64,000 bases of DNA. Source: Bacilli bacterium (GTDB lineage: Bacteria > Bacillota_I > Bacilli_A > RFN20 > CAG-826). The position numbers and the translations under genes were made by a program. Shown here piece by piece: positions 1 through 973 of the stretch; the first letter of the stretch is position 1, and every line of letters starts with the position of its first letter. Where the stretch lies: NCBI GenBank assembly GCA_017468925.1, contig JAFUHI010000003.1, positions 1 through 64,000 of the forward strand. The letters are read 5' to 3'. The notes below the pieces were generated by a model that did not search any database, was not told the origin of the DNA, and was given only the letters and a program-made list of their open reading frames with translations.

Positions 1-4
1 AATA

Positions 5-33
5 AGGGGTGAAATAATTAACATCTCACCCCT
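5..33 (-). terminator. Hairpin downstream of the ranthipeptide-like gene
   Basis: A perfect 8-bp stem (AGGGGTGA at 5-12, TCACCCCT at 26-33) is followed on the minus strand by TTATT. It starts 7 bases after the peptide stop codon. It may be an intrinsic terminator or a partial attenuator that keeps a high precursor-to-maturase ratio; the weak T tract favours partial read-through. The next gene lies outside the window. Confidence 0.6.
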
Positions 34-39
34 GACTTA

Positions 40-192
40 TTATTTAGGATCTTTTGTACCACAAGCAGGTGCTGGTTCTGGGTCTTTTGTACCACAAGCA
101 GGTGCTGGTTCAGGATCCTTACTGCCACATGCTGGGGCTGGTTTTGGATCAGCAGAGCCACATGCAGTGCTGAATAAGTTGAGTTCTAACAT
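40..192 (-). CDS. Small Cys/Asp repeat peptide, freyrasin-like ranthipeptide precursor
   Basis: This 50-residue gene reads right to left. A strong AAGGAGG lies 11 bases before the ATG at 192, so translation is very likely. After a ten-residue leader-like start (MLELNLFSTA) come four copies of an 11-residue unit, CGxxDPxPAPA, with Cys at residues 11, 22, 33 and 44. Each Cys has an Asp four positions later (CGSAD, CGSKD, CGTKD, CGTKD), giving four C-x3-D motifs. Known from the family: freyrasin-type ranthipeptides have CX3D repeats, and a radical SAM/SPASM enzyme links each Cys sulphur to the Asp beta carbon. Inferred: this is such a precursor and its maturase lies beyond position 1. The function of the mature peptide is unknown. 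It could instead be a metal-binding Cys-repeat peptide, but the strict spacing and Pro-rich linkers favour the RiPP reading. Confidence 0.75.
   Translation of the reverse strand: MLELNLFSTACGSADPKPAPACGSKDPEPAPACGTKDPEPAPACGTKDPK
47..178 (-). repeat. Four tandem 33-bp units encoding the CX3D repeats
   Basis: Units lie at 47-79, 80-112, 113-145 and 146-178. The two nearest the stop codon (47-79 and 80-112) are almost identical, the third is close and the fourth has diverged. This points to recent unit duplication inside the peptide gene. Confidence 0.8.
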
Positions 193-279
193 ATTCTTTT
201 TTTCCTCCTTGGTATAATTATTAATTTTCAGAATATTTAAAGCACTGTATAATTTTAGACAGAGTGTCGGATTTTACTT

Positions 280-861
280 ATGAGCCATTATATAGAAGCT
301 AGAGAAAAAACAATAACAAAAATAGAGAAAGCCTATTTTGATCTCTATATAAAAGATAGAAAGATAACTGTTAATGAGATATGCAAAATTGCTGGTATCC
401 ACCGCTCAACATTTTATTTTTATTATGAATGGGTTGATGATGTTCTTGATGGCATTAAAAATAGGTTGTTAAATAAATTAGTCAACATAGTTGAAAGCAA
501 AGAAAGAGGCAACCAAGATTTCCGACAAATCCAAATTAATCTCCGTCAAATGTTTAAAATAGACCGTTATTATTTAGTTCCCCTAGTGCTTGAACAAAGA
601 GGTGGGAAATTCGCTGTGCAATATCGTGAATATCTTAAAGAAAAATTCGCTGAAGATTTAGGATTAGATTATAAAACTGGTAACGACGTAAAAAACGATG
701 TTGCTAACTGTGTTTTATCTGGAATGATTGAAATCATGCTATACGAATTATCCAGTGAAATAATACCTGAAGAATTCACATATATCATCGGTAGAGGAAT
801 TATTGATAAAGGTGTTAATAAGACTCTAAATGAAGATTTAAATATAAAATTTGGAAAATAA
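280..861 (+). CDS. TetR/AcrR family transcriptional regulator
   Basis: The 193-residue protein has an N-terminal TetR-type helix-turn-helix around residues 25-50 (ITVNEICKIAGIHRSTFYFYY, a typical recognition-helix pattern). The rest is a helical ligand/dimerisation domain of usual family length. A TATAAT box at 248-253 precedes the ATG by 26 bases, and no clear Shine-Dalgarno is seen. The gene is divergent from the CX3D peptide, with 87 bases between the two starts, so it is the natural candidate to control peptide expression. The family normally represses; the ligand is unknown. Codons are more AT-rich than in the glycan genes that follow, consistent with an accessory origin for the peptide/TetR pair. 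Confidence 0.85.
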   Translation: MSHYIEAREKTITKIEKAYFDLYIKDRKITVNEICKIAGIHRSTFYFYYEWVDDVLDGIKNRLLNKLVNIVESKERGNQDFRQIQINLRQMFKIDRYYLVPLVLEQRGGKFAVQYREYLKEKFAEDLGLDYKTGNDVKNDVANCVLSGMIEIMLYELSSEIIPEEFTYIIGRGIIDKGVNKTLNEDLNIKFGK

Positions 862-898: not shown

Positions 899-973
899 TG
901 GTTGCGGGGGGAGGATTTGAACCTCCGACCTCCAGGTTATGGGCCTGGCAAGCTACCACTGCTCTACCCCGCG
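899..973 (-). tRNA. Initiator tRNA-fMet (CAT)
   Basis: The cloverleaf folds with acceptor CGCGGGG / CCCCGCA, leaving the C1-A72 mismatch that marks bacterial initiator tRNAs. The T arm is GGAGG / CCTCC and CCA is encoded. The anticodon loop is CCCATAA with CAT at 34-36. Two oddities: position 33 is C instead of the near-universal U, and the initiator's three G-C pairs at the base of the anticodon stem are A29-T41, G30-C40, G31-C39. It is 75 bases including CCA. Confidence 0.93.

Follow-up and report, generated by a model that had tools for sequence, protein, structure and literature searches.

The reference ACGX system associates acgA, an 'ACGX-repeat peptide' (TIGR04341), with acgM, a 'radical SAM/SPASM domain protein, ACGX system' (rSAM_ACGX, TIGR04340), both annotated on a plasmid of Roseburia sp. 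831b (NZ_CP135163.1). Since the components carry NCBIfam names only, and no paper devoted to the ACGX system was found in the literature searched, the chemistry and the purpose of the system look open. Among the ranthipeptides, the freyrasin precursor PapA contains repeated CX3D motifs, in which the radical SAM/SPASM maturase PapB joins Cys to Asp or Glu, Cys-Xn-Asp being accepted with n from 0 to 6 (PMC9413430). Another maturase, SbtM (TIGR04082), makes a thiooxazole on Cys, and its substrates lose four hydrogens (PMC11002830). Peptides containing thiooxazoles are characterized by an absorbance near 302-305 nm (PMC12538549).

The locus described here lies at the left end of a 64,000-nucleotide stretch of DNA from a gut bacterium (the window, which designates the whole stretch that was analysed) and continues on a second contig of the same genome. 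As judged from its genes, it is almost certainly a RiPP cassette of the ACGX type, comprising acgA, acgM, a regulator and a dehydrogenase. With the reference system it shares a maturase scoring over the family cut-off, Ala-Cys-Gly repeats, a precursor gene located directly before the maturase gene, an oxidoreductase gene coming next and a divergent regulator. It differs from this reference by a precursor in which Pro-Ala linkers join exclusively single-Cys ACGxxDP units and which has no TIGR04341 match, by a TetR-like instead of an HxlR regulator, by an MDR dehydrogenase instead of a nitroreductase, and by a cassette containing no SirTM or macrodomain gene. The resemblance to freyrasin concerns the repeated CX3D, the radical SAM/SPASM nature of the maturase and the tolerance of Glu for Asp. 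However, the enzyme stands outside the PapB family (69 bits vs a cut-off of 340), Cys is nearly always followed by Gly whereas the minimal PapA motif is CSAND (PMC9413430), and the region upstream of the repeats is very short in the window precursor. By score, SbtM provides the nearest characterised maturase model and it also acts on Cys, but AcgM reaches 196 bits vs 350, selenocysteine is absent, and the SbtM model has ~195 extra N-terminal positions. The MNIO thiooxazole copper-binding peptides, such as the bufferins and Microbulbifer Mmr, similarly display tandem Cys-Gly repeats of varying copy number, but depend on a different, non-radical-SAM enzyme and on an EGKCG motif.

Precursor gene and organization of the cassette

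The features of the locus, with the evidence for each in brackets, are distributed as follows:

1..141 (-): overlap with contig G000:C8, leading to the maturase (141/141 bases identical)
5..33 (-): hairpin with a 12-bp stem, between the precursor and maturase genes (folding, -20.3 kcal/mol, z -3.7)
40..192 (-): acgA-type precursor peptide gene (ORF reading, shuffles, codon comparison; orthologues in L034-L038)
50..111 (-): two identical 29-bp direct repeats, 50-78 and 83-111, with a 33-bp spacing, inside the precursor gene (sequence, codon register)
203..211 (-): ribosome-binding site AAGGAGG, just upstream of the ATG (sequence; also in L034, aligned with relatives)
242..275 (-): conserved block with GACAnnnTGTC, in the 87-bp divergent intergenic region (alignment with L034-L038)
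280..861 (+): TetR-like regulator, 193 aa, divergent (adjoins the precursor in L034-L038 with 72-99% identity; family matches weak only)
C8/L003:155-1195, outside the window: AcgM radical SAM/SPASM enzyme (Radical_SAM and SPASM Pfam domains)
L003:1198-2142, outside the window: quinone-reductase-like MDR dehydrogenase (gene reading and profiles)

Contig C1 of the source genome ends at window position 1, and the 141 bases found there recur, in the opposite orientation, at the start of contig C8; a de Bruijn assembler run at k=141 would be expected to leave such an overlap on breaking at a branch. On C8, the gene encoding AcgM (346 aa) lies 52 bases past the precursor stop on the same strand; the maturase with a radical SAM and a C-terminal SPASM domain, which the original prediction had placed just left of the window, was thus found. 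Comparison shows the C1/C8 join to be correct for this group of species, because a Goat_Reticulum contig (L034) is collinear with the joined contigs over 2,899 bp (94.9%) without any gap, through regulator, precursor, maturase and dehydrogenase. Five other genomes (L034-L038) each have the four genes in this order on one contig, the maturase of L038 reading in two pieces. The cassette is accordingly ordered as a divergent TetR-like regulator, acgA, acgM and the quinone-reductase-like MDR dehydrogenase. A LysR gene occurring on C8 was left out, being absent from the L034-L038 neighbourhoods.

The minus-strand translation of 40-192 is MLELNLFSTACGSADPKPAPACGSKDPEPAPACGTKDPEPAPACGTKDPK, which comprises 50 aa from an ATG start. 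It is built from four ACG-x-x-D-P units, the first Cys coming after 10 residues, and its four Cys recur with a period of exactly 11 residues, each with an Asp at +4 (4/4 CX3D). Four CX3D were reached in 0/20,000 composition-preserving shuffles of the precursor, with a mean of 0.31. With respect to the window precursor, the synonymous/non-synonymous codon differences amount to 7/0 in L034, 6/0 in L035, 21/3 in L036 and 21/3 in L038, and 22 of the 24 bases that differ in L036 occupy third codon positions. Because the changes between relatives are nearly all synonymous, codon comparison indicates that the frame is a real gene constrained at the protein level. It is short and repetitive, and no Pfam or NCBIfam model matched it with a meaningful score, as would befit a chance low-complexity ORF; yet this explanation is refuted by conservation and retains a vanishingly small probability, in view of the 21 synonymous vs 3 non-synonymous codon differences with L036, the conserved ribosome-binding site and position, and the maturase adjoining in the window genome and in five relatives. 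The predicted 50-residue gene with AAGGAGG and four 11-residue units, each with CX3D, is thus confirmed by ORF reading, shuffles and codon comparison, and its assignment as a RiPP precursor is borne out by the adjoining ACGX maturase and the conserved repeat motif. The accompanying idea that the number of rings changes by unit duplication agrees with the identical 29-base units and with the 2 to 7 units encountered in related precursors across species, but received no support within the population. A second copy of the precursor in the genome was ruled out, the only matches being the two overlapping contig ends.

The conserved block at 242-275 is a probable promoter/operator, and a consensus promoter scan returned no minus-strand site. 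The hairpin at 5-33 is also readable in L034-L038, with a wholly different stem sequence in L037, and likely represents an attenuator or an RNA-end stabiliser. Located between acgA and acgM, it may allow far more precursor than enzyme to be produced.

A tRNA-Met gene (window 899-973, minus strand) adjoins the regulator end of the cassette, and other tRNAs occur near the same end in L034 and L035. Insertion beside a tRNA at this end is possible.

Family and structure of the maturase

AcgM matches TIGR04340 with 471.9 bits over model positions 1-341 of 341, above the cut-off of 400 bits. The next-best model is SbtM (TIGR04082, thio(seleno)oxazole) with 196 bits, under its cut-off of 350, followed by other SPASM models such as AhbD (135 bits) and NirJ2 (114 bits), whereas the PapB/freyrasin model NF047865 gives 69.1 bits, under its cut-off of 340. 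The Roseburia AcgM ranks the models in the same order, with 157 bits for SbtM vs 54 for PapB. By comparison, a SCIFF maturase of the same class (L077) scores 288 bits against PapB and 237 against QhpD, compared to 629 against the model of its own family. Membership of AcgM in the PapB family, as put forward in the original prediction, had therefore to be rejected, with 69 bits against a cut-off of 340 and a SCIFF maturase reaching 288. On the basis of these profiles, AcgM is an ACGX-system maturase (TIGR04340) and not a member of the freyrasin (PapB) family. Across the class, all matches to the PapB model were under the cut-off, and the one that was checked corresponded to the SCIFF maturase L077. 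When the phylum was searched for SbtM, AcgM proteins alone matched, under the cut-off of the SbtM model. An SbtM-profile match reaching upstream of acgM in genome G240 was set aside, the stretch being read through three stops.

Ten Cys are invariant in 14 AcgM homologues, namely C15, C19 and C22 of the radical SAM cluster (CX3CX2C) and the seven SPASM residues C257, C275, C311, C314, C320, C323 and C341. The AlphaFold (AF2) model of AcgM (pLDDT 81.5) finds its best solved matches among the SPASM enzymes SuiB, anSME, TigE and SkfB, of which SuiB, TigE and SkfB are peptide maturases. The radical SAM motif of AcgM starts at residue 15, too close to the N-terminus for a recognition domain to be fused there, whereas SCIFF enzymes possess ~100 residues before theirs. 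In the phylogenetic tree, built without PapB or SbtM sequences, the AcgM clade is supported at 99/98 and separates from the SCIFF rows. The deep forks are weak (93/95, with long branches meeting), so that, as regards the ranthipeptide maturase clade (PapB, QhpD, SCIFF), the tree is no more than consistent with the profile scores.

The Cys motif and its possible modification

Sixteen distinct precursors, with a total of 92 Cys, were used to define the motif. Gly occurs at +1 in 91/92 Cys and Ala at -1 in 85/92, while position +4 is occupied by Asp/Glu in 53/92 and by Cys in 30/92, so that D, E or C is found in 83/92. Cys-Gly is the stronger invariant across the 16 precursors, compared to the +4 acid. 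When only the bacterial Cys devoid of a Cys at +4 are taken into account (Methanosphaera being left out), an acid occurs at +4 in 53/55, and several precursors have Glu in place of Asp. The Cys/Asp spacing that had been expected to be conserved thus holds strongly among the bacterial relatives, but it does not extend to the archaeon Methanosphaera, in which Glu at +3 (Cys-X2-Glu) occurs in 7/7 units, nor to one Roseburia unit with Ala at +4 and no acid. The refuting condition attached to the original prediction, i.e., homologues without a conserved Cys/Asp spacing, thus partly applies.

The commonest unit is ACGxACGxxD, i.e., Cys-x3-Cys-x3-Asp. Single and double units seem interchangeable, because double CX3CX3D units are mixed with single CX3D or CX3E units in L054-L056; the window lineage contains single-Cys units only, separated by Pro-Ala linkers. 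The distance from unit to unit varies from 9 to 21 residues among precursors, and L037 retains its four CX3D despite a linker shortened by two residues. Cys-x3-acid is therefore strongly conserved in bacteria, and the linkers are variable. From 10 to 33 residues precede the first Cys, differing between lineages, and no in-frame TGA or selenocysteine occurs in these precursors.

The ACGX-peptide model TIGR04341 (cut-off of 28 bits) detects most of the double-Cys precursors and gives no match to the window or L037 precursors. It is not exhaustive, since even L058, a true maturase neighbour, attains only 24.1 bits. Consequently, the locus was filed by its maturase and the window precursor as a new single-Cys, Pro-linked variant of the ACGX system, which may still work in a freyrasin-like manner. 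The current peptide model evidently misses a lineage.

The sequences make it very probable that the precursor Cys are modified by AcgM, which would generate a 5'-deoxyadenosyl radical and oxidatively modify the one Cys present in each ACGxxDP unit. In the form we favour, the Cys sulfur would be bonded to a carbon in the side chain of the Asp at +4, resulting in four small thioether rings between rigid Pro/Ala linkers and in a total loss of 8 Da. In the PapB/freyrasin family, the corresponding bond joins Cys S to Asp C-beta. A Cys-Asp thioether is favoured because of the fixed acid spacing, the Asp/Glu exchange and the PapB precedent, and the tolerance of PapB for n from 0 to 6 implies that the archaeal +3 spacing would also be covered. 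Its probability is nevertheless placed slightly below an even chance, as is that of an ACGX cassette and this chemistry taken jointly, for AcgM is distant from the PapB model (69 bits), SbtM being nearest to it after its own family, the Gly at +1 is more strictly kept than the acid, Methanosphaera has its acid at +3 and one Roseburia unit an Ala at +4, and in the double units both Cys share the same context though the first is without a +4 acid. The four-ring Cys-Asp structure remains one of two serious chemical readings. A thiooxazole formed in an SbtM-like manner on each Cys of Ala-Cys-Gly, with 4 H lost per Cys, is possible though rather unlikely; the +4 acid would then serve for recognition or metal binding, and the product would be a thiol/metal-binding peptide. 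This proposal draws on SbtM being the top model after ACGX (196 bits for the window enzyme and 157 for Roseburia, compared to 69 and 54 for PapB), on Cys-Gly in 91/92 and the preceding Ala in 85/92, on the single local context of both Cys in the double units, and on the thiooxazoles reported for peptides that bind copper and repeat the Cys-Gly motif EGKCG (PMC12538549). It has to accommodate, however, an AcgM score under the SbtM cut-off of 350 and precursors without selenocysteine or in-frame TGA, and it does not explain the strict acid spacing on its own.

The probability left beyond thioether and thiooxazole belongs to other modifications or to none. Another radical SAM modification, such as a sactionine (alpha-carbon thioether), an i+4 bond to Asp/Glu/Cys, or an epimerisation, is unlikely; with a Cys acceptor, the i+4 bond would give a chain in the double units. 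The D, E or C residues at +4 in 83/92 Cys fit a general i to i+4 acceptor, and SPASM enzymes of similar score (AhbD 135, NirJ2 114 bits) differ widely in their chemistry, but the preference for an acid suggests an acceptor bearing a carboxylate. The single-Cys window precursor represents the simplest ACGX form seen for learning what AcgM does, as its four near-identical single-Cys units, devoid of paired Cys, offer a clean choice between 2 Da (thioether) and 4 Da (thiooxazole) per unit.

Neighbouring genes, possible biological role and distribution

In all loci with sufficient flanking sequence but L074, acgM has beside it or nearby a gene for an NAD(P)H-type oxidoreductase, either a quinone-reductase-like MDR protein (without the GHE zinc motif) or a nitroreductase. 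SirTM and/or macrodomain genes, a pair tied to the oxidative stress response (PMC4518038), lie close to 8/14 acgM loci of lineages other than that of the window, L074 being excluded from the count. The regulators belong to the HxlR type, or are TetR-like in the window lineage and in L065. Inspection of the gene lists around ~20 acg loci, which does not amount to a systematic count, revealed no recurring exporter, protease or immunity gene. These neighbours (oxidoreductase, SirTM/macrodomain, HxlR/TetR), together with the lack of a shared exporter, suggest a role in redox stress inside the cell, and we tentatively consider that the peptide could remain intracellular and serve under redox or electrophile stress. 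Export as a bacteriocin or signalling peptide, which the comparison with freyrasin would suggest, seems somewhat improbable: many Cys-rich radical SAM RiPPs are antimicrobials or signals, and transport could come from elsewhere in the genome, but it is the NAD(P)H-type oxidoreductase and HxlR/TetR genes that recur, and not exporter, protease or immunity genes, and the first Cys is preceded by a short region of 10-33 residues that differs between lineages. The recurring links to SirTM/macrodomain, quinone-reductase-like and nitroreductase genes point to a stress role, unlike the usual assumption of an antibiotic.

In the window genome, an HxlR-macrodomain-SirTM cluster, whose macrodomain and SirTM genes are separated by a further gene, is located on contig C5 (G000:C5:111515-114430; L083:3016-5931), unlinked to the acg cassette.

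The distribution of the ACGX system is patchy, with AcgM genes over the cut-off in 6/395 genomes of the class, window genome included, and in 0/96 other close relatives. Named relatives occur on plasmids of Roseburia, Subdoligranulum and the rumen archaeon Methanosphaera, and another on a contig classed as viral; the cassette therefore probably moves between hosts. More speculatively, and with a rather low probability, ACGX peptides could be widespread, mobile non-antibiotic RiPPs, i.e., intracellular Cys-modified repeat peptides made upon redox/electrophile stress, which would act in concert with quinone/nitro reductases and also, in many of the hosts, with a SirTM/macrodomain ADP-ribosylation switch. 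The single-Cys form would then be one evolutionary extreme, with one modification per unit.

Some individual loci deserve mention. On the Methanosphaera sp. ISO3-F5 plasmid pNP174 (L067:5673-8024), the acg cassette includes a seven-unit CGxE precursor, and the maturase gene, which a frameshift splits into two CDS in the record, may have decayed or contain a sequencing error. A 24-kb contig classed as viral (IMGVR_UViG_3300010998_001242, L073:3740-5934) carries an acgA-acgM-ABM monooxygenase-nitroreductase cassette ~1 kb after an Amidase_2 endolysin-like gene, possibly a phage- or prophage-carried copy. Another contig classed as viral, of 504 kb (IMGVR_UViG_3300028886_000026, L074:3941-5026), harbours an AcgM homologue (44% identity) that is an orphan, no peptide with Cys-Gly repeats having been found in the 9 kb that were read. 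Finally, a distant AcgM-like enzyme scoring ~143-150 bits on TIGR04340 occurs in L063:5995-8888(+) and L064:7590-10741(-), where its gene overlaps the end of the gene of a large membrane protein with the C-terminus SSCGGGCSSCGGGCSSCGGGGSW, and this enzyme may modify the Cys-Gly tail of the membrane protein.
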